DNA of 64,000 nt. It comes from Urbifossiella limnaea. Its GTDB lineage: Bacteria; Planctomycetota; Planctomycetia; Gemmatales; Gemmataceae. Below are positions 28,050 to 55,194 of this stretch, piece after piece (positions within the stretch are counted from its first letter, which is position 1; the number at the start of each line of letters is the position of its first letter). The notes under the pieces were generated by a model that was not told the DNA's origin, searched no databases, and worked only from the letters and a program-made list of their open reading frames with translations. The DNA is taken from assembly GCF_007747215.1 (NCBI RefSeq), contig NZ_CP036273.1:5750322-5814321 (forward strand), in the 5' to 3' direction. The translations under genes were made by a program, and so were the position numbers.

Positions 28050-31000
28050 TTAATCCTTCCTGGACTGCGGCACGGCGAGTCGGGCATCGGCGAGCCGCGA
28101 TCTCGCGCGGGCGATGTCGGCGTCGATCGGGTTGAGGGCGTCGGGGGTGAGGACGCCGGCCTCCACCCGCGCGGCGGCGACGGCCCGGCGCGTCTCGTGC
28201 CGCTCGACGATCTGTTCGAGGAGCCGAACCGCCCCGGCGGCGGGCGCGCCGTCGAGTTGCGCCTCGAACACTCCGATCTCGGCCTCCGCGACCTCGCGGC
28301 GGGTGTTAAGGCCGGCGTCGAACCGGGCCTTCGCCGCGGCTAGCCCCTTCTCCGCCGCCGCCACCCGTTCCCGCCGCGCCTGGATGATGGCGGCGTACAC
28401 CGCGGCCGACCACGGCTCGGGCAGCGGCAGCACAAGGGTGCCGGGCGGCGGGGCGACGGCGGGTGGCGCGACCGGCGCGCGGAGGTCGCCGGTGACGACG
28501 ACCCGAAACCCGGTCCCGGCGTCCCACGCCCGATCGGGCTCGCCCGCCCCGCGGATGTTCACCCGGGCGGAGGCCGGGCCGGAGTTCCAGCCGCCGCCCC
28601 GGGTCACGCGGCCGCCGGGCCGCAGGGGGGAGGCGTCGGCACACCACTCCCACACGTTCCCGAGGGTGTCGTACAGGCCGAACGGGTTGGCCTGCTTCCC
28701 GCCCACCGGCTGCGGCCGCTCCGGGCGGGCGGCGGGGAGGTTGCCGGCGAACCAGGCCGCCGCGTCCAGCGCGGCCACGCCGTCGGCGGCGCCGTGCCGG
28801 CCCGCCGACCCGGCGCGGGCCGCGTACTCCCACTGCACGCCGGTCGGCAGGGCGTACGCCCGGCCGTCCTCCTTCCCGAGCCAGGCGCAGAACGCCCGGG
28901 CGTCGTTCCAGCTCACCTGCGTCACCGGCTCGTCGTCCCCCGGGGTCCAATTTCCGGGCGTCCGCCACTGGTGGGCCGGGTGCCGCTGCCACCGGCCGTC
29001 GCGGTGCGCCCACCCCCCGTCCTTGGCCTTCTCGCCGTCCGTTTGATAACCCGTCGCGGCCACGAACCGGCGGAACTGGCCGACGGTGACCTCGTGGGCG
29101 GCGGCGTAGAACGGGTCGGACACACGGACGCGGGCCGGGGGGGGTTCGGCCGCGACCTCGTCGAGGACGAACTGCGGGGCCGAGCCGGCCCGGAGGTCGG
29201 CCAGCACCTGGGCCCTTTCGGCGTCCGTGGTGCCGGCCGTAAACTCGCCCGGCGGGATGAGGCGCATCTTCATCCCGACGCTGTTCTCGAACTCGACCTT
29301 CACCCCGAGGCGCGCCGCCCACGCCTCCTGGTGCGCCTTCGCCTCCGCGGCCGAGACTGGGGGCACGTCCGGCGGTGGGGCGGCCGGCTCGGGCGTCAAT
29401 TCCTTGACCTCGACCTTGCGGAACTCGGCCGTCGTCCCGGGGAACGCCTGGAGGGCCAGGTGCCCGACCTCCGGGCCGGCGTGCTCGTGGTCGACGAGCA
29501 CCTTGTCGTTCACCCGGACGACGACCCGCCGCCCGCGGGCGATCACCTCCAGGGTGAACCACACGTTGGCCGGGACGGGTGGGGTCGTCACCCGGGCCAG
29601 CATGTACTCGTGGGCCGGAAAGATCATCAGGCTGCCGGTGGCGTTCTGGTCGGCCGCCGGCCCCGCCACCTGCACCTCGTACCCCGGCGGCGCCCCCATC
29701 ACCTCCGCAGTCGGCACGGTCACCCGGAAGTGGACCCCGCTGTTGCCCAGGTCGTTGACCCGGCACTCGGCCCGGAGGTGGAAGTCGCGGTAGTCCCCGC
29801 GGGCCGAGTAAAGGTAGTTCTGGACCGGCCCGCGGCCCGTCAAGACGCCATCGACGACCGTCCAGTTGGCCGGAGATCCGGGGACGGTCTTCCACCCGGT
29901 CAGGTCCTTCCCGTTGAACAGCGACACCCACGCCCCGCCGGCCCCCGTAGCGGCACCGACGGCGGCCTTGAGGTCGCCGGTCAGGGCGACCCGGAAGCCC
30001 TTCGGCAGGGCCGGCCGGGTCGGGTTGTCGAACGAGCGGAAGGCGACCTCCGTGTACACCGCGGCCGCGTTCCACGACCCACCCCGCGACGCCCGCCCGG
30101 TGTTCGGTTGGGTCGGCGGGTCGAGGTTCGCCGGGTCGTCGATCGGGGACCGGCGGTAGAAGTCGGCGACGTGCCAGTCGCGGCACCACTCGTCGGCCCC
30201 GCCGTGGACGTCGAACAGGCCGAACGGGTTGGGCGCCTTCAGCCCGACCGGCCCCGGCTTCGGCCAGGCCTGGCCGAAGACGGCGTGGTCGAGCAGCTTC
30301 GTCGGGACGTTGCCGAACGACCAAATCCCGGGCGCCCCGCCCCGGGCGGCGTACTCCCACTGGGCCTCGGTCGGCAGCTCGTACCCCGGCCCGAGCCAGC
30401 GGCAGAAGGCCTCGGCGTCCGCCCAGCTCACCCCGACGACCGGCTGCCGGTCCTCCTGCCCGGGGGTGACGAACCCGGTCCAGTCGATCGTCCCGGTCGG
30501 GGCGTGCTTGGCGGCCTCGACGAACCGGCGGAACTGGCCGGCGGTGGTCTCGTACTTGGCGAGGTAGAACGGCCGGGTGATGCGGACGGTGTGCCGCGGC
30601 CCGCTCGACTCGGCCGCGAACCGCTGGTAGTCGCCGACGTTCGGCAGCGACTTGAGACTCGACCGGACGGCGGCCAGTTCGACGTCGGTATAGCCCATCC
30701 CGAACTCACCCGGCGGGATCAGGCGGAAGGCGACGCCGGACGGGTGGGTGAACTCGACCGGGACGCCGAGGTGTGCAGCCCATCCCTTCTGTTGCAACTC
30801 GGCCATTGCCGGGTCGAACGGGGCGACCGCGGGCGGGGGGGGGGCGGAGCCCGGGGAGGTCCGGGTCACCTCGACCCGCGCGGTGACGCGACCGCCGGGG
30901 ACGACCTCGAACCGCGCCGACCGCGAGACCTGCGTACTGCCGATCGAGACGCTGCCGCCCCCGAACCGCCCCTGGGTGGCCGTCACGTCCCACTGCTTCG

Positions 31001-32492
31001 TCGTGAGCCCGGCGGCGAACCGCGGTTCCAGCGTGTAGTGCCCCGGCGGCAGCCGCAGCGTCTGGCCGTTGCTCACGTCCTGCCAGTCGCCGGGGGAGTC
31101 GCCGTCGCGGAGGGCGCGGACCGACTCCAGCCCCGCCGCCCGAACCACGATCACCTCGCCGCGGTCGTCGTTCATCAGCTTCTGCACGGCCGGCAGGCCG
31201 ATCCCGAGCAGCACCAGCAGTACCGGCGTCAGCAGCACCAGCAACAGGCAGCCCGCCGCCACCCACGGCCACCGCCGCCGCTTCTTCGCCGGCCGCAGCG
31301 GCGGGGCCGGCTTCGGCGCCACCCGCGACACCACGGTCCCCTGCTGTTGCAACTCGGACAGGTAGCCGGACAGAAGGTCGGCCACCTCCTCGGCCGTCTG
31401 GAAGCGGTCGGCCGGGATCTTGGCGTGGAGCTTCGCCACCACGTCGGCCAGCCAGCGCGGCACCTCGGGGTTCACGTCGCGCACCGGCCGCGGGTCGTCC
31501 TCCACGACGCGCTTCAGCACCGCCAGCGTGTTCTCGGCGCGGAACGGCGGGCGGCCGGTGCACAGCACGTACAGCACGCTGCCGAGGCTGAACAGATCGC
31601 TCCGCGTGTCGAGGGTGTCGCCGCGGGCCTGCTCGGGGCTCATGTACATCGGCGTGCCGGCCACCACGCCCGACTGCGAGATGCTGGCGTCGTCGGCGGC
31701 GCGGGCCAGGCCGAAGTCGGTCACCTTCACCCGCTCGACGCCGTTCTCCAGGAGGATGTTCGCCGGCTTGATGTCGCGGTGGATGAGCCCCTGTCGGTGA
31801 GCCGCGGCCAGCCCGCGGGCGATCTGCGCCCCGATCCGCAGCACCTCCTTCGGCGGCAGCGGGCCGGCCTTGTCGAGCTTCTGTTGCAGCGTCTGCCCGG
31901 CAACGAGTTCCATCACCAGGAACGGCACCGGGGCGTCGTCGTCGGACACGGCGAAGACGTTGACGACGTGCTCGTCGCGGACGGCGGCGGCGGTGCGGGC
32001 CTCGCGGAGGAAGCGGGCGCGGGCGGCGCCGCTGGCGGCCAGCTGCGGGGCGAGCACCTTCACCGCCACGACCCGGTGGAGACGGTCGTCGAACGCCTTG
32101 AGCACAGTGCCGAACCCGCCCACGCCCAGGACCTCGTGCACCTCGTAGTGCGCCAGCCGGCCGAGCGAGCCGGGCCGCGTCGGCGGCGAGAGGAACGCCA
32201 GCACTTCCGTGGGATCGGCGGCCCGCCCCCCGGCGTGGCCCGTGGCCGCGCCCCCCGGCTCGTGCCCGGCCCGGGTCTGGGTCGAGTCCGGGTCGGTCGG
32301 CGGGAGCGTTGCGGTCGCGTCGGCCCCGACGGCCGGGTGGTTCAGGAAGCTGCCGGCCGCGGCGTGGGCGGCGAGCAGCTCCTCGACGCGGCGCCGCGCC
32401 TCGGGGTCGGGGCAGTGGGCGTTCAGGAACGCGGACCGCTCGGCCGGGTCGGCGCGGTCCAGGGCGGCGGCGAACAGGGTTTCTTCCGTCAC
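28050..32492 (-). CDS. Ser/Thr protein kinase fused to FGE, DUF1080 and second FGE domains
   Basis: The 1480-residue protein joins six parts. A complete kinase spans about 114-385 (P-loop GVGGFGTV 123-130, AVK lysine 145, HRD 238-240, DFG 259-261). One membrane helix lies near 408-432. The exported portion holds a sulfatase-modifying-factor/FGE-like domain (about 565-838; YELPTEAQWEYAARGG, RASRGGSW), a DUF1080 beta-sandwich (about 852-1030; FNGKDLTGWKTV), a second FGE-like domain (about 1050-1330; LPTGVQWEYAARAG, GNVWEWCAD) and a C-terminal alpha-helical tail (about 1364-1480). The kinase should be cytoplasmic and the rest outside. The FGE domains probably bind ligand rather than generate formylglycine, since the catalytic cysteine pair is not evident. 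It could sense envelope carbohydrate; this is inference. Confidence 0.9.
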   Translation of the reverse strand: MTEETLFAAALDRADPAERSAFLNAHCPDPEARRRVEELLAAHAAAGSFLNHPAVGADATATLPPTDPDSTQTRAGHEPGGAATGHAGGRAADPTEVLAFLSPPTRPGSLGRLAHYEVHEVLGVGGFGTVLKAFDDRLHRVVAVKVLAPQLAASGAARARFLREARTAAAVRDEHVVNVFAVSDDDAPVPFLVMELVAGQTLQQKLDKAGPLPPKEVLRIGAQIARGLAAAHRQGLIHRDIKPANILLENGVERVKVTDFGLARAADDASISQSGVVAGTPMYMSPEQARGDTLDTRSDLFSLGSVLYVLCTGRPPFRAENTLAVLKRVVEDDPRPVRDVNPEVPRWLADVVAKLHAKIPADRFQTAEEVADLLSGYLSELQQQGTVVSRVAPKPAPPLRPAKKRRRWPWVAAGCLLLVLLTPVLLVLLGIGLPAVQKLMNDDRGEVIVVRAAGLESVRALRDGDSPGDWQDVSNGQTLRLPPGHYTLEPRFAAGLTTKQWDVTATQGRFGGGSVSIGSTQVSRSARFEVVPGGRVTARVEVTRTSPGSAPPPPAVAPFDPAMAELQQKGWAAHLGVPVEFTHPSGVAFRLIPPGEFGMGYTDVELAAVRSSLKSLPNVGDYQRFAAESSGPRHTVRITRPFYLAKYETTAGQFRRFVEAAKHAPTGTIDWTGFVTPGQEDRQPVVGVSWADAEAFCRWLGPGYELPTEAQWEYAARGGAPGIWSFGNVPTKLLDHAVFGQAWPKPGPVGLKAPNPFGLFDVHGGADEWCRDWHVADFYRRSPIDDPANLDPPTQPNTGRASRGGSWNAAAVYTEVAFRSFDNPTRPALPKGFRVALTGDLKAAVGAATGAGGAWVSLFNGKDLTGWKTVPGSPANWTVVDGVLTGRGPVQNYLYSARGDYRDFHLRAECRVNDLGNSGVHFRVTVPTAEVMGAPPGYEVQVAGPAADQNATGSLMIFPAHEYMLARVTTPPVPANVWFTLEVIARGRRVVVRVNDKVLVDHEHAGPEVGHLALQAFPGTTAEFRKVEVKELTPEPAAPPPDVPPVSAAEAKAHQEAWAARLGVKVEFENSVGMKMRLIPPGEFTAGTTDAERAQVLADLRAGSAPQFVLDEVAAEPPPARVRVSDPFYAAAHEVTVGQFRRFVAATGYQTDGEKAKDGGWAHRDGRWQRHPAHQWRTPGNWTPGDDEPVTQVSWNDARAFCAWLGKEDGRAYALPTGVQWEYAARAGSAGRHGAADGVAALDAAAWFAGNLPAARPERPQPVGGKQANPFGLYDTLGNVWEWCADASPLRPGGRVTRGGGWNSGPASARVNIRGAGEPDRAWDAGTGFRVVVTGDLRAPVAPPAVAPPPGTLVLPLPEPWSAAVYAAIIQARRERVAAAEKGLAAAKARFDAGLNTRREVAEAEIGVFEAQLDGAPAAGAVRLLEQIVERHETRRAVAAARVEAGVLTPDALNPIDADIARARSRLADARLAVPQSRKD

Positions 32493-32750: not shown

Positions 32751-33578
32751 ATGCCCCTGACCCGCCTGCTCCCCCCCGGCCGGTTCGTCCTCGTTGCCGG
32801 CCTCGCCGTGCTGGCCCTCGCGCTGTTCCCGGAAATCGCCTCCGCCCAGGAGGAAAAGCCGAAGGACAACATCGTCTTCCACATGATCAAGTCGGTCGGG
32901 TGGGTGTTCGGGCCGCTGCTGCTGAGCCTGTCGATCATCCTCGTCGCCCTGTGCGTGCTCCTCATCCTCGACCTGCGGATGCAGAACGCCATCCCGCCCG
33001 GGTTCGTGGACGAGTTCACCGACACCGTCAACAAGCGGAAGTTCAAGGAAGCCTTCGACCTGGCGCGGAACGACCCGTCGTTCCTGGGCCGCGTGCTGAC
33101 CGCCGGCATGGGCCGGTTGCAGTACGGCATCGAGGACGCCCGCGAGACGGCGATGAACGCCCTGGAGGCGATCAAGAGCGACAAGGACCAGAAGAACAAC
33201 TACACGGCCGTGATCGCGTCGCTCGGGCCGATGCTCGGGCTGGTCGGCACGGTGTACGGCATGATCGAGAGCTTCATGGTGCTCGGCAGCAGCACCGGCA
33301 CGCCGAACGCCAGCGCCCTGGCCGAGGGCATTTCGCACGCCCTCGTGGTGACGCTGTTCGGCATCGGCGTGTCGGTGCCGGCCATCTTCTTCAACGCCTT
33401 CTTCAAGAACCGGATCACGAAGATCACGATGGACACGGCGCACATCGCCGAGGACCTGCTGACGCAGATGTACCACAACTCGAAGAAGGGCCCGCCCGCG
33501 CCGGGCGCCCCGGGGGCGCCGGTGCCGGGCGCCCCGCCGGGGCCGGCCGCGCCCGGGGCGCCGATGCCGCCGCGGTAG
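32751..33578 (+). CDS. MotA/TolQ/ExbB-family proton channel protein
   Basis: The 275-residue protein is the channel subunit of an Exb/Tol-type motor that uses the proton gradient to drive envelope work. It begins with a signal-like hydrophobic stretch ending ASAQ, then a helix (about 49-72, FGPLLLSLSIILVALCVLLI). The family core follows: IASLGPMLGLVGTVYGMI (about 160-177) and a final pair of helices with HALVVTLFGIGVSVPAIFF. The C-terminus is a Pro/Gly/Ala-rich tail of about 30 residues (PGAPGAPVPGAPPGP), an unusual addition. It heads a run of five same-strand genes with two ExbD partners, an unknown membrane protein and a cyclase-repeat protein. Confidence 0.9.
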   Translation: MPLTRLLPPGRFVLVAGLAVLALALFPEIASAQEEKPKDNIVFHMIKSVGWVFGPLLLSLSIILVALCVLLILDLRMQNAIPPGFVDEFTDTVNKRKFKEAFDLARNDPSFLGRVLTAGMGRLQYGIEDARETAMNALEAIKSDKDQKNNYTAVIASLGPMLGLVGTVYGMIESFMVLGSSTGTPNASALAEGISHALVVTLFGIGVSVPAIFFNAFFKNRITKITMDTAHIAEDLLTQMYHNSKKGPPAPGAPGAPVPGAPPGPAAPGAPMPPR

Positions 33579-33595
33579 TAACCAGTGGAGCGTAC

Positions 33596-33634
33596 GCCGG
33601 GAACAGGTAACACCCGACACCGCCTGTTCCCGGC
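33596..33634 (+). other. 12-bp perfect hairpin between exbB-like and exbD-like genes
   Basis: GCCGGGAACAGG (33596-33607) pairs with CCTGTTCCCGGC (33623-33634) around a 15-base loop. An outer CCAGTGG/CCACTGG pair (33582-33588 and 33670-33676) encloses it. No U tract follows, so it may be an RNA processing or stability element that adjusts channel-to-ExbD ratios. Confidence 0.45.
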
Positions 33635-33684
33635 CTCCTGTCTTCCGTTCCCGGACTTGTGTCCCCTGACCACTGGCCTCCCCA

Positions 33685-34182
33685 ATGAGTCACGGCAGCA
33701 GCGGCGGCGACAAGTGCGAGCCGAACCTGATCCCGCTGCTGGACCTGGTCCTGCAGCTGGTCATGTTCTTCATGGTGTGCGCGAACTTCGTGATGGAGCA
33801 GGTGAGCGAGGCGATCAAGCTGCCGGAGGCGGTCGTCGCCAAGCCGATCGAGAAGGCCGACGAGTTCGTCATCTTCCTGAACGTGGACAAGGAGGGGAAG
33901 GTGATCCTGGCCGGCCTCGACGCCCTCAGCGACGACGCGAAGGACAACACGCTGACGAACCCGCAGCAGGTCATGTCGTACATGAAGCGGCGGCACGACA
34001 TGGACATGAAGCGGAAGCCGAAGGACGGGCAGGCCGGGCCGGTGCCGTCGCTGGTCATCATTCGGGCCGACAAGGAGGCCCAGTTCGAGAAGGTGTACGG
34101 GGTGATGAAGGCGTGCCGCTCGGCCGGGTACGATCGCTCCCAGCTCCGCGCCATCCGCTTCGGCGGCAATACGGCACAGTAG
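33685..34182 (+). CDS. ExbD/TolR-family biopolymer transport protein (first copy)
   Basis: This 165-residue protein has the ExbD/TolR layout: a short cytoplasmic N-terminus, one membrane helix (about 12-35, [20 protein letters not shown]) with the key Asp of the proton path in LLDLV, and a periplasmic domain. ExbD and TolR couple proton flow through ExbB/TolQ to conformational work. The periplasmic part ends with the [18 protein letters not shown] stretch typical of the family. It follows the ExbB-like gene by 106 bp and precedes a second ExbD-like gene, a paired arrangement common in planctomycetes. Energised partner and cargo are unknown. Confidence 0.88.
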
Positions 34183-34243
34183 GGAACTTCGGGACCGGGG
34201 GACGGTGGGACTCCGGGACCAAAAGCGTCCCGCCACTGCGAAA

Positions 34244-34283
34244 CCCACGGTCCCACGGTCCCACGGTCCCACGGTCCCACGGT
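34244..34283. repeat. Five perfect 8-bp tandem repeats (CCCACGGT)
   Basis: Five exact copies of CCCACGGT run from 34244 to 34283, ending eight bases before the second exbD-like ATG. A partly complementary stretch (GGGACCGGGGGACGGTGGGA) lies upstream near 34194-34213, so folding is possible. Copy-number change could alter the leader and the spacing before the start. Confidence 0.85.
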
Positions 34284-34291
34284 CCCCCCCG

Positions 34292-34780
34292 ATGTCCGCC
34301 AAGCACAAGAACGTGACCGAGGATGTGACGGTCGAGCTGCCGATCACGCCCATGCTGGACATGAGTTTCCAGCTCATGGCGTTCTTCATCTTCACGTTCC
34401 GGCCGGCCCCGAGCGAGGGGCAGATCGCCATGTCGCTGCCGAAGGAGGAGGGCGGCGGCGACGCCGTCCCCAGCGCCACCGACGACAAGCCGGTGACGTT
34501 CGTCGTCACCGTGGACAGCGGCCCGAACGGCACCGTCGGCAACATGACCATCCGCGAGAAGGACGGCCCCCCCGGCGGCGACGCCATCGGGGCCAGCTTC
34601 GACCGCTACGGGGCCGAGTTGCGGAAGCGCCGCGCCGACCTGAAGGGCCGTCCGAGTAAGCTGACGCTGGAGATCGGCGACGGCATCCTGCACGAATACG
34701 TGGTGCGCCTGCTCGACGTGGCCCGCCAGGCCGAGTTCGAGGACATCGCCCCCATCCCGGCCAACCCCAAGAGCCGCTAG
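34292..34780 (+). CDS. ExbD/TolR-family biopolymer transport protein (second copy)
   Basis: The 162-residue protein starts [20 protein letters not shown] and has one N-terminal helix (about 21-40) with the proton-path Asp in [18 protein letters not shown] periplasmic domain follows, with a Gly/Pro-rich insertion ([18 protein letters not shown]) before [20 protein letters not shown]. Its sequence is clearly diverged from the first copy, so the two are not a recent duplication. They may form a heteromeric ExbD pair with the ExbB-like channel. ATG 34292 is chosen over an upstream in-frame ATG at 34205, because the intervening codons translate the CCCACGGT repeats. No clear Shine-Dalgarno is visible. 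Confidence 0.86.
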
Positions 34781-34904
34781 ACGCTCCCAGGGCCTTTGCT
34801 CTGGGCTGTTGGCTGCCGCCCCTTCGGGGCTCAAACCGGCACCGGTGGTATCCCATCCAGGTCGGCCCGTGACCACCGGCGGACACGCGGTTGCCAGAAA
34901 GCGA

Positions 34905-34931
34905 TTGCGGCGCGGGAACTTCCGGCACAAT
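34905..34931 (+). promoter_or_regulatory. Possible promoter for the duplicated-domain membrane protein
   Basis: TTGCGG (34905-34910), 15 bp, CACAAT (34926-34931). The predicted transcript start is about 27 bases before ATG 34964. The same layout precedes the genes at 39003 and 58784, which strengthens the case. Confidence 0.42.
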
Positions 34932-34963
34932 CGACCGTCCAATGCTGTGGAGGGGTTGCTCGC

Positions 34964-36448
34964 ATGTCATTCGGCCGGAGCCATTCCGCCGCTCAAGTTG
35001 GTTCCCGGTTTGCCCTTGCGGCCGGTCTGGCTCTCGCCTGCGCAGCCGGCGTTCGCGCCCAACCCGAGAAACTCGACGAGGAGCCGCCGCTCCCGCCGCA
35101 GGAGCTCAAGCGGTTCAACGAGACGAAATGGCGGCCGAAGGGCGGGGCACTCGCCGTCCCCAACCCCGACCGGGCCATCTTCCGCGGCCGGCTCGACGCC
35201 AAGCTGAAGACCGTGACCGGCGGCATCGAGGACGACCGGCCGCTGGCGTCCGAGAAGCAGAACGCCGACGAAGCCGCGGCCTGGGTCGAGGTGGTGGTTC
35301 ACGCCCACGGCCTCGCCGCCGCCGACCTGGAGAAGTACGCCGCAACCGACCTCACGCCCGACGACCTGACTCAGCCGCAGCGACGCTACTTCCGCCTGGA
35401 GCTCGTCCGGTTCGACGGCACGCTCACGAAGTTCCGCCGCGTCACGCCCGTGAAGGCGCTCGCCGACGTGGGCATCACGGCCGTCTACGAGGGCTGGCTG
35501 GTGCCGGTGGACGAGTCGCCGGCGAACCCGGTGCGGGTGGTGTTCACCGAGTTGCCGACCGGCTTCCCGGTTCCGCCGGCCCCGGCCGCGGGCGCCCCCG
35601 CCGGCGAGTGGCTCGCCGCCGAGCGCTGGGTCGCGTTCGCCGGCTTCTTCTTCAAGCTGGCCAGCGAGCCGCAGGCGCCGGTGGTCGTCGGCAAGTCGGT
35701 GACGCCGCTCCCCGGCCCGCCCCCGGAGGCCACCGACCTGGCGCTGGCGACCCGCTACCGGGTCTTCCGCCTGGTCCGCGACGACGCCCCGATCAGCCGC
35801 GACCCGATGCACTGGGAGGAGACGGCGGCGTGGAACCGCACGCTGCTACACGTGCGGAAGTTCGAGCTCGACGCCCTCCAGGCCGCCGCGAATCCGAAGC
35901 TGTCGTTCGCCGACCTGTTCCAGACCGGCCGCGAGGATTATCAGTTCAAGCTGGTGCAGATCAAGGGCCGGCTCATCCGCGTGAAGGCGGTGGAGCGGAG
36001 CAAGCGGCTGGTCGAGGCCGGCGTGCCGAACCTGTACGAGGCGTGGGTGGTGCCGCACGACGAGCCGCGCGGCAACCCGGTCTGCGTCGTACTCACCGAG
36101 TTGCCCGACGGCGTGGCGCCGGCGAACCTCATGAACTTTAACGTGGTCGTGGCCGGCTACTTCTTCAAGCTGTTCCACTACGAGTCGGCCGAGCCCGCGG
36201 GCGACGACCCGGCCCGGCACAAGTGGAAGAAGGCGCCGCTGATCCTGGCCCGCGGCGTGTCGCTGGTGACCACCGACCCGACCGACGGCCCCCGCGAGTG
36301 GGTGAAGTGGTTCATCCCGGTGATCGTCGGCGGGGTGGTGTCGCTGGCCCTGTCAGCGTTCCTGCTGAGCCGGTGGTTTCGCGCCGGCGACGATCGCGCC
36401 CGGGCCGAGTTCGAGAATGCCCGGGTGAAGAACCCGTTCACCGAGTAA
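34964..36448 (+). CDS. Membrane-anchored periplasmic protein with a duplicated domain, unknown function
   Basis: This 494-residue protein has an N-terminal signal peptide (MSFGRSHSAAQVGSRFALAA, cleaved near VRAQ) and a C-terminal membrane helix (about 446-470, IPVIVGGVVSLALSAFLL), so its bulk should be periplasmic. Two related halves are visible. The first has YEGWLVP, VRVVFTELP and AGFFFKL (about 185-230); the second has YEAWVVP, VCVVLTELP and AGYFFKL (about 355-400). I do not recognise the domain. ATG 34964 has GGAGGGG nine bases upstream. Sitting between the ExbD genes and the cyclase-repeat gene, it is a candidate adaptor for the Exb motor; this is inferred from position only. Confidence 0.78.
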   Translation: MSFGRSHSAAQVGSRFALAAGLALACAAGVRAQPEKLDEEPPLPPQELKRFNETKWRPKGGALAVPNPDRAIFRGRLDAKLKTVTGGIEDDRPLASEKQNADEAAAWVEVVVHAHGLAAADLEKYAATDLTPDDLTQPQRRYFRLELVRFDGTLTKFRRVTPVKALADVGITAVYEGWLVPVDESPANPVRVVFTELPTGFPVPPAPAAGAPAGEWLAAERWVAFAGFFFKLASEPQAPVVVGKSVTPLPGPPPEATDLALATRYRVFRLVRDDAPISRDPMHWEETAAWNRTLLHVRKFELDALQAAANPKLSFADLFQTGREDYQFKLVQIKGRLIRVKAVERSKRLVEAGVPNLYEAWVVPHDEPRGNPVCVVLTELPDGVAPANLMNFNVVVAGYFFKLFHYESAEPAGDDPARHKWKKAPLILARGVSLVTTDPTDGPREWVKWFIPVIVGGVVSLALSAFLLSRWFRAGDDRARAEFENARVKNPFTE

Positions 36449-36517
36449 GTCCGTGACTCGCTCGGAGTCGTGTGATACATTAGTTCAACCGTCACCGCCC
36501 GCCCGAGGGAGACGACC

Positions 36518-38206
36518 GTGAGCATGCCGAACGCCACCCCGCCCGCGAACAACCGACCCGCGCCGCCGCCGAAGCCGGCGGGCGGCCCGGCCGTGATCCG
36601 CCGCGTCGGCGGCGTCGAGGAGACGCTGCACGACCGGCTCGTCAACCGCCACCTGCCGGCGTGGGTCGTCAGCGGCCTCGTCCACCTCGGCATCATTGCC
36701 CTGGCCTTCCTCATCTTCGGCTTCCGCGGCCCGGAGAAGAAGCAGGTCGACAAGATCCTGGCGACCACCGTCGAGAAGGAAGAGACGGACGAGAGCACCA
36801 AGGACCTCACGATCGAGGACATCGGCTTCGAGCCGCACGAGGCCGCCATCCCCGACATCGAGCGCGAGGCGGAGAAGACCTCCGTCGGCGTCGTGACCGA
36901 CGACCCGGTCGGCGTGCCGGACGCCAAGACGAACGACTCCAACGCGCTGTCGGCGATCGGCCTGCCGTCGTCGGACCTGACGACGCCCGGGGCCACCGGC
37001 GACGCCGGCATGGCGGTCGGCGGCACCGGCGGTGCGAACGGCCTGGCACAGGCCGAGTTCGCCGGCCGCAGCGGCGGCACCAAGAGCCGGCTGCTGAAGG
37101 AGGGCGGCGGCAACTCCGAGAGCGAGGCGGCCGTGGCCGCCGGGCTGAAGTGGCTCGCCAACCAGCAGAAGCCGGGCGGGTACTGGGAGTTCGACCCGCG
37201 CGACCCGAAGATGAAGACCAAGGACTGGGCCACGTCCACCGGCCTGGCGCTGCTGCCGTTCCTGGCCGCCGGCCAGACGCACCGCTCCGGCGGCAAGTAC
37301 ACCAAGCAGCTGTCCGACGGCCTGACCTGGCTGAAGAACGACCTCAACATCTCGACCGGCCGGTTCAACCACGGCAGCCCGCAGTACATGTACGGCCACG
37401 CCATCTCCACGATGGCCCTGTGCGAGGCGTACGGCATGACCAAGGACCGCGGCCTGCTTACGCACGCCCAGGCCGCGATCAACTACATCGTCCGCGCCCA
37501 GGGGGCCGACGGCAGCTGGGGCTACCAGGCCGGCACCACCGGCGACACGTCGATCGTCGGCTGGCAGGTTCAGGCGCTGCGGGCCGCGCAGCTGACGAAG
37601 GACATCACCGTGCCCGAGGCGTCGGTGAAACGGGCCGTCGAGTTCCTGAACCGGGTGTCGTCGGGCTCGCTGAAGTCGGCCTACGGGTACACCCAGCCGA
37701 ACGGCCGGGCCGGCACGGCGCTGACGGCCGTGGGCCTACTCTGCCGCTACTACGTGGACGGGTGGGGGCCGAACAACGCCGGCATGGCCGAGGGCTCGAT
37801 CGGCCTGTTCGGCAACACCAAGGCCGACGCCGTGAACACGGTGACGAAGACGGACCGCATCCGCGCCCCGCGGACGCTGGAGCAGGTGAAGGCGAACCCG
37901 GGCACGCCCGAGATGTACTACTACTACTACGCCACGCAGGTGGTCCACTTCTACGGCGGCCCCGAGTGGCAGGAGTGGAACGAGGGGCCGAAGGACGCCA
38001 CCGGCAAGCGGCTCGGCGGCATGCGCGACTGGCTCGTGAAGACGCAGAGCAAGAACGGCAACGACAGCGGCAGCTGGAACCCCGACCCGGGGACGATCGG
38101 CAGCCACTGCGGGCGGGTGGGCACGACGTGCCTGACGCTGCTGACGCTCGAGGTGTACTACCGCCACCTGCCGCTGTACAAGCGGAACCAGGGCGCCGCG
38201 GACTGA
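36518..38206 (+). CDS. Membrane-anchored prenyltransferase/squalene-cyclase-repeat protein with TonB-like N-terminus
   Basis: The 562-residue protein starts with a Pro-rich cytoplasmic segment, then one membrane helix (about 48-66, AWVVSGLVHLGIIALAFLIF) followed by an acidic periplasmic linker, as in TonB-type anchors. From about residue 200 it is built from alpha/alpha-toroid repeats of the prenyltransferase/squalene oxidase class (AVAAGLKWLANQQKPGGYWE, AINYIVRAQGADGSWGYQ). No DxDD cyclase or prenyltransferase zinc site is evident, so it is probably a binding scaffold. It follows the ExbB/ExbD-like genes and could be the element they energise. GTG 36518 (GGGAG six bases upstream) or ATG 36524 may start it. 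A strong terminator follows. Confidence 0.83.
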   Translation: MSMPNATPPANNRPAPPPKPAGGPAVIRRVGGVEETLHDRLVNRHLPAWVVSGLVHLGIIALAFLIFGFRGPEKKQVDKILATTVEKEETDESTKDLTIEDIGFEPHEAAIPDIEREAEKTSVGVVTDDPVGVPDAKTNDSNALSAIGLPSSDLTTPGATGDAGMAVGGTGGANGLAQAEFAGRSGGTKSRLLKEGGGNSESEAAVAAGLKWLANQQKPGGYWEFDPRDPKMKTKDWATSTGLALLPFLAAGQTHRSGGKYTKQLSDGLTWLKNDLNISTGRFNHGSPQYMYGHAISTMALCEAYGMTKDRGLLTHAQAAINYIVRAQGADGSWGYQAGTTGDTSIVGWQVQALRAAQLTKDITVPEASVKRAVEFLNRVSSGSLKSAYGYTQPNGRAGTALTAVGLLCRYYVDGWGPNNAGMAEGSIGLFGNTKADAVNTVTKTDRIRAPRTLEQVKANPGTPEMYYYYYATQVVHFYGGPEWQEWNEGPKDATGKRLGGMRDWLVKTQSKNGNDSGSWNPDPGTIGSHCGRVGTTCLTLLTLEVYYRHLPLYKRNQGAAD

Positions 38207-38226
38207 CCGCGGCGGGCGGACCGCAA

Positions 38227-38255
38227 GCCCGGGGGCCTGTGCCCCCGGGCTTTCT
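38227..38255 (+). terminator. Rho-independent terminator after the cyclase-repeat gene
   Basis: GCCCGGGGGC (38227-38236), loop CTGT, GCCCCCGGGC (38241-38250), then TTTCT. This is a classical intrinsic terminator 20 bases after the stop codon, closing the exb-like cluster. Confidence 0.88.
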
Positions 38256-52512: not shown

Positions 52513-53589
52513 CTATCGCCCCGGCCCCCGAACCGCCGCCCGCGCGCTCAGCGCCTGACTCGTCGCCACCACCGGGTCGTTCTCGCGGACCAGCTCGACC
52601 TCGTTCACCCAGCTGCCGTCCGCCCGCTGCTTCCGCGCCAGCGCCGCCGCCAACCCCGCCGGCTCGCCCAGGTTCGCGGCCCGGTACGCCCGCGCCACCG
52701 ACGCCGCGTAGTAGAAGTACACCGCGTTCCGGTTCGGCTCCAGCGCCGCCGGGTACGGCCCCGGGTGGCGCTCCGCCTGGAAGTTCGTCCGCAGCCAATC
52801 GGCGGCGCGCGTCGTGCGGCGGTCGACATCCGTGGCGTGCGCCCCGCGGCGGCACAGCAGGAGCGCCCGGAGCCCGTCGGCCGTGGCGCTGCCGTAGGAC
52901 ACGCCCACGCCGTCGATCAACCCCGCCTTGTTGCGCACCGGGTCGGCGTGGACGAAGTGGAAGCCACCGTCCGCGTTTTGGCAGCGCCGCAGGAACGCGA
53001 ACGCCGCAGCGGCGCGGGCGTCGGTGAGCGCGCCGGCTGAGGTCAATGCCTCGAGCGCGAACAGCGTCGCGGACAGGTTCGACTCGGTGAACAGCGGCGC
53101 GAAGCCCGTCGCACCGGGCTTCTTTGGTACGACACGGCAGTAACCCCACCCGCCGTAGTGCGGGTCGTCCGCGGTCCAACCCAGCTCGTGGGTCAGCTGC
53201 CGGGCGAGGAGGTACTTCGTCCACGCCGCCTTCGCGGCGGCGCGGGTTACGCCGTCGGCGTGGCACAGCGCTTTCAGTGCCAGCGCCGCGGTGTAGACGG
53301 GATAGTCGAAGCCGCCGTCCGGCTCGCGGACCTCGCCGTCCTTCACAAACGTGTCGAGGAAGGCGAGCGCCTTTTCGCGGGCGGCGGGTGCGGCGTCGGC
53401 GTCCTGGAGTGCGCCAAGCACGAGCGGCGTGAGGGCGGTGCCGTCCTTGAACGCGGCGTACACGTCGGACCGCCACGCCCCGTCGGGCGACTGGCGCTTC
53501 ACCAGGTAGGCGACGGCCGCGGCGGTGTCGGCGCGCGGGGCGGGCGGCTGTGCGACGACGAGCGCGAGCAGCGCGACGGACGGGGACAT
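52513..53589 (-). CDS. Secreted prenyltransferase/squalene-oxidase-repeat protein
   Basis: The 358-residue protein has a signal peptide (MSPSVALLALVVAQPPAP) and then alpha/alpha-toroid repeats like those of squalene cyclases: AVAYLVKRQSPDGAWRSDVY, FLRRCQNADGGFHFVH and LARKQRADGSWVNEVELVRE. The QW-like pattern (Q-x-x-x-G-x-W/F) recurs at least four times. Catalytic acids of true cyclases are not evident, so it may be a periplasmic binding protein. ATG 53589 is used because the upstream ATG at 53619 adds residues that break the signal peptide. It leads the trmJ-containing run and is followed after 26 bp by an unknown gene. Confidence 0.83.
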   Translation of the reverse strand: MSPSVALLALVVAQPPAPRADTAAAVAYLVKRQSPDGAWRSDVYAAFKDGTALTPLVLGALQDADAAPAAREKALAFLDTFVKDGEVREPDGGFDYPVYTAALALKALCHADGVTRAAAKAAWTKYLLARQLTHELGWTADDPHYGGWGYCRVVPKKPGATGFAPLFTESNLSATLFALEALTSAGALTDARAAAAFAFLRRCQNADGGFHFVHADPVRNKAGLIDGVGVSYGSATADGLRALLLCRRGAHATDVDRRTTRAADWLRTNFQAERHPGPYPAALEPNRNAVYFYYAASVARAYRAANLGEPAGLAAALARKQRADGSWVNEVELVRENDPVVATSQALSARAAVRGPGR

Positions 53590-53616
53590 GGGAATACCCC
53601 AGGAAAAGCAGATTTT

Positions 53617-53685
53617 CACGCAGAGGCGCGGAGCCGCAGAGAAGACAGAGTCCTGTTCTTCTCTGCGGCTCTGCGGCTCTGTGTG
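53617..53685. repeat. Intergenic palindrome with 29-base arms
   Basis: Arms 53617-53645 and 53657-53685 are complementary apart from three mismatches, around an 11-base loop. The right arm carries the tandem CTCTGCGG units. It lies between two cyclase-repeat genes on the minus strand and could end the upstream transcript. Confidence 0.62.
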
Positions 53686-53694
53686 AGCAATGGT

Positions 53695-55194
53695 TTACTC
53701 CTTCGCGTCGCGCTTCTCGGCCTGCGCCCGCAGCACGTCCACCGGGAACGGCGTCCGGTCGGCCGTCATCACGAGCAGCGCCGCCGACGTGCAGAACGTC
53801 CGCCCGGTGATGCAGTGGTGGCCGCTCCAGCTGCCGCTGCCGTCCTGGGCCTTCTCCAGGCCGGTGCGCATCTTGGTGTCCCAGTCGGTCCAGTCCTTGC
53901 CGCCCTTGAGCACGAGCGACTCGCTGATGTGCATGAAGCTCAGGAACTCCTCGCCGCCGTTGGAGCCGAACCCGGCCACGAACTTCTCGTCTCGCACGGT
54001 CGCGGCCAGTTGCCCCTGGACCTTGTCGTTGGCCCGCTCGGCCTCGCCGAGTCGCTTTACCGTCTCGCGGGCCTCTTCCTTCTGCTTGTCGGTCGCCTTC
54101 AGGTCTTTCAGCACTTCCTTCGCCTTCGCGCCGTCGACGCGGAGGCCGTTCACCGCGTCCTGCGTGTTGCCGGCGCCGCGGCCGAAGCTGTACAGCTTCA
54201 CCCCCGCGTCGCCCCCGCCGACCCCGCCGGCGCCGGCGAACCCGGCGCTACGGCCGGAGAACGCCCCCTCGGCCGACGCGCCGGGAGGCGCCGCGTAGGC
54301 CCCCGGGTCGCCCGCCTTGGCCTTCCCGGCCGGGAGCGCCGCGACCGCCGCCGGGGCGGGGCCGGACGCCAACGCCTTCCCCTCGGCCGCCGTCTTGGCG
54401 TCGGCCAGCGCCCGCTCCAGCACCCGGCGATCCACCTCGACGCCGTTCTGCCGCGCCCGCGCCACGCTCTTGTTGCACAGCCCCATCGACAGCGTGGGTG
54501 CCCACCCGCCCTGGTTGGCGAACCCGCCGTCGGCCCCCTGGTGGCGCACGATCTTGTTCATCGTCTTGGTCAGCGCCGCGACCAACCGCTCCTCGTCCGG
54601 GCCGGCGCTGCCGCGCATCTCGGCCAGTACCAGGTTCACCAGGAAGGTGTCCACGTACGGCCCGATCTTCCCCTGCAGTTGCGTGCCGCGGACGTCGGTG
54701 ATGTACAGCGAGTCGCCCTCGGCCCGCTCGACGCGGCCGAGCACGAACCGCAGCCCCTTGGCCACGGCGTCCTTGTAATCGCCGGTGGTGGCGGTGTGGC
54801 CGGCGCGGAACAGGGCCAGCAGCGCGAAGCACGTGTTCCCCACGTCCGACGGGTCTTCGACCGTCTTCCCCTCGACGCGGCCGCCGTTCGGCCCCTGGTT
54901 CCGCCAGCCGCCGCCCTGGTTCCAGCCGCCGTCCTCCTGCTGCGACTTCACGAGCCAGGTGAGCCCCTTCTTGACGGAGTCCGACAGCGGCCGCGGGGTC
55001 ACGGCCGTCTTCATCTCGACCTTCACGTTCGTGACCTTGACCGGCGACAGCTTCTCGGCCGCCTTCTCACTCGGCGGCGGGGCGGTGGGAACGGCGGCCG
55101 GCGGCTGGCCGGTCGCGGGGACGAGGTTGAGCGCGAACGTGGCCGCGAGCCCGACGGCGGCGGCGGCCCGGAGCGGGCGGATCAGGCGGGACAT
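53695..55194 (-). CDS. Secreted prenyltransferase/squalene-oxidase-repeat protein with large insertion
   Basis: The 499-residue protein has a signal peptide (MSRLIRPLRAAAAVGLAATF) and toroid repeats: KGLTWLVKSQQEDGGWNQGG, KIVRHQGADGGFANQGGWAP and, at the end, LEKAQDGSGSWSGHHC. Between them lies an insertion of about 160 residues, Ala/Gly-rich first and then a charged coiled-coil-like stretch (KEVLKDLKATDKQKEEARET). It is related to, but not a copy of, the neighbouring 52.5-kb gene and the 36.5-kb gene. GGAGG eight bases before ATG 55194 supports the start. Exported and probably structural or binding rather than catalytic. Confidence 0.84.
   Translation of the reverse strand: MSRLIRPLRAAAAVGLAATFALNLVPATGQPPAAVPTAPPPSEKAAEKLSPVKVTNVKVEMKTAVTPRPLSDSVKKGLTWLVKSQQEDGGWNQGGGWRNQGPNGGRVEGKTVEDPSDVGNTCFALLALFRAGHTATTGDYKDAVAKGLRFVLGRVERAEGDSLYITDVRGTQLQGKIGPYVDTFLVNLVLAEMRGSAGPDEERLVAALTKTMNKIVRHQGADGGFANQGGWAPTLSMGLCNKSVARARQNGVEVDRRVLERALADAKTAAEGKALASGPAPAAVAALPAGKAKAGDPGAYAAPPGASAEGAFSGRSAGFAGAGGVGGGDAGVKLYSFGRGAGNTQDAVNGLRVDGAKAKEVLKDLKATDKQKEEARETVKRLGEAERANDKVQGQLAATVRDEKFVAGFGSNGGEEFLSFMHISESLVLKGGKDWTDWDTKMRTGLEKAQDGSGSWSGHHCITGRTFCTSAALLVMTADRTPFPVDVLRAQAEKRDAKE

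Follow-up and report, generated by a model that had tools for sequence, protein, structure and literature searches.

In the planctomycete Urbifossiella limnaea, genes for an ExbB/ExbD-type motor run into a gene for a protein that is laid out like TonB and ends in an alpha/alpha toroid, which raises the question of whether this toroid is what the motor moves. To our knowledge, Ton and Tol are the only systems whose transfer of energy to the outer membrane is understood in detail, vWA transducers having been proposed lately. Here, we analysed this locus within a 64,000-nt stretch of the U. limnaea genome (the window). Gene content, conserved linkage, motor residues, an SxxxH signature in the membrane helix and the predicted fold lead us to favour, with a probability of roughly 0.7, a motor driven by the proton motive force with a toroid-headed, TonB-like force transducer, as a variant of the Ton/Tol kind.

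The motor genes and their putative anchored accessory

Five ORFs, all on the plus strand, span positions 32751-38206 and encode, in order, an ExbB-like channel subunit, two ExbD-like proteins (ExbD1 and ExbD2), a protein of 494 residues (P494) and the 562-residue toroid protein, with 106, 109, 183 and 69 nt between successive genes. All five members agree with the initial annotation, which had described an ExbB-like channel, two diverged ExbD-like proteins, a periplasmic membrane protein and a toroid-repeat protein in one run. It had also ended this run with a strong terminator, of which the hairpin stands: fold prediction gives a GC-rich, terminator-like hairpin with a perfect 12-bp stem at 38225-38252 (+), a 59-nt stretch folding at -38.1 kcal/mol (z -2.4). 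Its T-tract is weak (TTTCTCGTT), however, and a consensus terminator scan did not call it, so that a terminator is only plausible. The spacer between ExbD1 and ExbD2 holds a short tandem repeat (GGTCCCAC) at 34248-34288 (+). A divergent gene at 28050-32492 (-) encodes a 1480-aa protein in which, by eye, a Ser/Thr kinase is fused to formylglycine-generating-type and 3-keto-disaccharide-hydrolase-type domains.

The ExbB-like protein (32751-33578, +; 275 aa) opens with a signal-like segment and belongs with ExbB/TolQ by its MotA_ExbB domain (PF01618, 4.2e-24; 85.1 bits against a curated Pfam cut-off of 22.9), its match to ExbB in the PDB (1.6e-10) and its conservation. The motifs GTVYGM and ALVVTLFG retain the pore threonines, which align with T148 and T181 of Escherichia coli ExbB. 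The protein departs from classical Ton/Tol channels at two sites: the conserved ExbB/TolQ Trp that contacts the transducer motif from TM1 has no visible equivalent in TM1 of the window protein, and the Glu of GIAEAL is replaced by His (GISHAL). Most Gemmatales motor loci have His at this position, against Thr in the vWA loci of Isosphaeraceae, and the residue found there may track the kind of transducer. Further ExbB-like genes lie elsewhere in the same genome, at C1:3218257-3218880 and C1:4335814-4336167 (L199 and L200); one adjoins a gene for a 441-aa ExbD-domain protein (PF02472, 4e-14), while the other is distant and has no ExbD among its neighbours.

Both ExbD-like proteins score above the curated Pfam cut-off of 25.4 bits for ExbD/TolR: ExbD1 (33685-34182, +; 165 aa) with 65.6 bits (PF02472, 5.8e-18) and additional ExbD/TolR matches in the PDB, and ExbD2 (34292-34780, +; 162 aa) with 39.5 bits (PF02472, 7.2e-10). 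Their transmembrane aspartates, Asp20 and Asp23, respectively, are kept in every complete homologue aligned. The two proteins have clearly diverged from each other and, because most complete loci contain both, they are judged likely to form a heterodimer.

P494 (34964-36448, +) is predicted to begin with a signal peptide and to carry a pair of OB-fold-like domains in tandem, ahead of a TM helix at the C-terminus. No family or relative of it was found in Pfam, NCBIfam or a PDB sequence search. Its AlphaFold2 model (mean pLDDT 79.8) places two repeated beta-rich domains before the helix (residues 444-488), its halves align with each other at a BLAST E value of 8e-24, and Foldseek matches it, at low TM scores, to OB-fold proteins such as single-stranded-DNA-binding proteins, MCM and lysyl-tRNA synthetase. 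P494 was found in 33 of the 37 Gemmataceae genomes examined and in 39 of 118 genomes drawn from across the phylum, and most relatives beyond the genus group of the window have one OB-fold-like domain. Outside Gemmataceae, the P494 gene often adjoins ExbB where the toroid gene is missing, and it is possible that this family is a general accessory of these planctomycete motors. In several planctomycete families (L181-L183, L190, L191, L207 and L213), a P494-family protein stands beside ExbB-ExbD with no neighbouring transducer.

The toroid protein and its membrane helix

The last gene (36518-38206, +; GTG start, with an in-frame ATG at 36524) had been described as coding for a protein with a Pro-rich start, one helix and an acidic linker, and each of these elements was recovered. 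Nine prolines fall within the first 45 residues; a TM helix follows at residues 37-67 (36626-36718, +), with a pLDDT of 82-95 over its core in the predicted structure; and a disordered linker (residues 74-182; 36737-37063, +; pLDDT below 50) leads to the toroid domain (residues 186-545; 37073-38152, +; pLDDT mostly above 90). Acidic residues outnumber basic ones by 23 to 10 within 116 residues of the linker region. A linker motif, DLTxxDIG, is kept in many Gemmataceae sequences in the alignment and could possibly act as a motor box.

The docking of TonB and TolA on ExbB/TolQ relies on a motif of Ser, His, Leu and Ser spaced by three, six and three residues (PMC12905483; PMC12204202), and cryo-EM structures show this motif touching ExbB/TolQ (PMC12905483). 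The TM helix of the window protein carries its first half, SxxxH, as in a TonB-type helix, with Ser52 at 36671-36673 and His56 at 36683-36685 (+); the Leu and the second Ser of the full motif are not retained (A63 and F67). In an alignment of 51 toroid-family sequences, the Ser is present in 48 of 48 cases, the His in 47 of 49 and the Leu in 35 of 50, and, besides Met1, Ser52 and His56 are the sole near-invariant columns outside the toroid. In the non-redundant family set, 150 proteins have a hydrophobic segment near the N-terminus; SxxxH is present in 119 of them and SxxxN in 14, most of the remaining 17 looking like signal-peptide forms. The background rate of SxxxH is 1.8% among unrelated ORFs with a hydrophobic stretch, although the 119 are related sequences and not independent draws; the linker that flanks the helix, by contrast, shows no conservation. 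All six genuine planctomycete TonB_C proteins with a readable N-terminus have SxxxH, as do most anchored toroid proteins from 20 deep-branching loci. The earlier comparison with TonB, which had been one of topology, thus extends to the TonB/TolA signature of the helix itself.

The domain behind the linker had been called a squalene-cyclase-type repeat, and its fold, but not a cyclase function, is borne out. Taken alone, the 562-aa protein matches SQHop_cyclase_C weakly in Pfam (0.0017); 15 of 17 homologues match the same family, the best at 2e-10, and searching the PDB with a profile of the 51 sequences retrieves squalene-hopene cyclase (5e-11). The protein thus shares with the squalene-hopene cyclase superfamily a toroid fold and weak sequence similarity, and differs from it by consisting of one toroid attached to a TM anchor and linker, with no DxDD motif in the toroid domain. 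Only two of the 51 homologues contain DxDD (positions 118 and 175), in both cases where the window protein has its linker. Cyclase activity was rejected as the main function on the ground that the window toroid lacks this motif. In broader terms, the toroid protein could be a membrane-tethered enzyme, terpenoid-cyclase-like or glycan-acting, with the motor genes as historical neighbours or mere positioners. The squalene-hopene cyclases that head its sequence matches would fit this, as would the Foldseek results, which are generic to the fold and comprise toroid enzymes, including a GH76 mannanase; we nonetheless consider it quite improbable, as the toroid lacks DxDD and catalysis alone would not account for the near-invariant Ser and His of the TM helix. 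Two more toroid-repeat proteins are encoded at 52513-53619 (-) and 53695-55194 (-); both start with a signal-like segment and lack an SxxxH TM helix, and one of them has a long Gly-rich insert.

Conserved linkage and an exchange of effectors

Loci were fetched from relatives and their genes assigned with iterated profiles. Among 37 genomes of Gemmataceae, the family of the window, ExbB, ExbD, P494 and the toroid gene lie together in 19, in the order ExbB-ExbD-ExbD-P494-toroid, and P494 adjoins the toroid gene in 29 of the 33 genomes that have P494. Several of the Gemmataceae loci without the full cluster are cut by contig ends, and three (G006, G016 and G029) are real splits. Toroid-motor linkage is also found in L064 and again in two other, distant planctomycete families outside the class of the window: one locus (L211) reads toroid-ExbB-ExbD-ExbD-P494 with a TPR gene upstream, and the other (L264) has the toroid gene linked to motor genes. 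The toroid gene stands apart from the motor in Pirellulales and in several Gemmatales relatives, with ExbB 2.6 Mb away in G006. Conservation of gene order in relatives had been named beforehand as a test that could overturn the proposed association, and the order held. The recurrence of the same layout across the phylum suggests an undescribed route of force into the planctomycete cell envelope.

A class of vWA force transducers was recently proposed beside tolQ/tolR-like motors (PMC12204202, Mol Biol Evol 2025). In three loci that we place, by inference, in an Isosphaeraceae-type group (L185, L187 and L188), the gene after ExbB-ExbD-ExbD-P494 codes for a vWA-domain protein whose TM helix bears SxxxH, in keeping with this class. 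Because a vWA transducer ends the same ExbB-ExbD-ExbD-OB operon in Isosphaeraceae, the toroid protein appears to occupy the transducer slot. That one lineage combines this motor and accessory gene with a toroid and another combines them with vWA is the best evidence for the toroid protein as transducer. A tethered enzyme would leave this exchange unexplained. The exchange also lends some backing to the suggestion of the initial annotation that the motor may move the toroid part. The main text of the report on vWA transducers makes no mention of squalene, prenyltransferase or toroid (PMC12204202), and the open-access literature on toroid or squalene-cyclase transducers, or on such planctomycete Exb systems, yielded nothing beyond PMC12204202 and PMC12505986.

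The complex that we infer for a toroid-headed transducer, with its stoichiometry, force and ligand, would work as follows. Protons passing through a ring of ExbB that surrounds the ExbD1/ExbD2 pair, a probable heterodimer, would drive a conformational cycle; the SxxxH helix of the toroid protein would dock on the outer face of ExbB; the flexible linker of about 110 residues would span the periplasm; and the pull would be taken by the toroid, bound to a ligand at the outer membrane, the cell wall or an envelope polymer. P494, with its periplasmic OB folds and C-terminal TM helix, would serve as an accessory motor subunit. Several observations weigh against this reading: the separation of toroid and motor genes in Pirellulales and several Gemmatales, the incomplete docking motif of the window protein, the lack of a visible Trp in ExbB TM1, the His in place of the GIAEAL Glu, and structural matches of the toroid that are generic to its fold.

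Candidate tasks and comparison with known systems

What such a transducer might do can be approached through its distribution. All 59 relatives have toroid homologues. Of the 118 genomes from across the phylum, 104 have them at E<=1e-30, a single genome giving as many as 12 scored matches, although not every homologue counted bears the anchor. TonB_C was found in 10 and the receptor plug in 24 of the 59 relatives. Since the system is near-universal in the class and TonB and TonB-dependent receptors are patchy, general envelope maintenance or macromolecule handling is our tentative guess, held at well below even odds; the same patchiness leaves room for a role in import. Two narrower tasks are sub-cases of the toroid-headed transducer, and their probabilities overlap with it.

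The first is Tol-like: the toroid protein would concentrate or pull an envelope-anchored partner, thereby stabilising or constricting the outer membrane. We regard this as doubtful. The breadth of the toroid family is what would be expected of a housekeeping system, and no OmpA/Pal domain (PF00691) was detected in the window genome; yet OmpA-type domains are present in 47 of the 59 relatives, no TolB- or Pal-like gene was seen among the neighbouring genes, the number of toroid matches per genome is unlike Tol, and Tol systems have nothing equivalent to P494 or the toroid. The idea that the clade lacks Pal was rejected on the same count of OmpA-type domains.

The second is Ton-like import, in which the toroid would open or pull an outer-membrane channel or capture polymers; this we think rather unlikely. 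Toroid folds frequently bind glycans, and the scarcity of TonB_C and plug domains among the 59 relatives also speaks for it. So does the reported uptake of chondroitin sulphate by planctomycetes, a polysaccharide uptake whose mechanism is described as unknown (PMC5520146). Against it, the loci examined show no consistent association with a receptor, porin or glycan gene, and no TonB-dependent receptor plug (PF07715) could be recognised in the window genome.

It is possible, though somewhat against the odds, that toroid-headed transducers driven by such motors form a family that extends across the phylum, commonly with several members in one genome, and that this family replaces TonB/TolA or works alongside them and powers an envelope process without counterpart in model bacteria, such as polymer uptake or outer-membrane maintenance. 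If true, a near-universal toroid-headed transducer would represent a third effector fold and a candidate power source for outer-envelope work in planctomycetes, for example polysaccharide uptake (PMC5520146), where TonB is patchy.

The initial annotation had set this locus apart from standard Exb/Ton and Tol systems, which is supported in that TonB_C, plug and OmpA domains were not detected in this genome, and needs correction in that the closest precedent is the vWA class (PMC12204202). With TonB-ExbB-ExbD, the locus shares ExbB/ExbD homology, the SxxxH transducer helix, the Pro-rich N-terminus and a linker of about 110 residues; it differs in having two different ExbDs and an OB-fold accessory, with no receptor plug detected in the genome and no TonB_C fold (PF03544 matched neither the 562-aa protein nor any other part of the window genome). 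With TolQ-TolR-TolA-Pal it shares homology of the 5:2-type motor, ExbB and ExbD1 matching TolQ and TolR models in a family-model search, whereas no TolA or Pal partner was found here and the effector is a toroid. From the vWA transducers it differs in the effector, an alpha/alpha toroid with no vWA match in Pfam, and in that the TPR gene reported for vWA systems (PMC12204202) is not in the window operon, although one lies upstream in L211. It resembles them in its TolA/TonB-like topology beside a motor with two diverged ExbD/TolR-like genes, in the SxxxH TM helix, in the disordered linker and in the globular, non-TonB C-terminal domain; vWA transducers likewise occur in the PVC group and, in Isosphaeraceae, at the end of the same ExbB-ExbD-ExbD-P494 operon.
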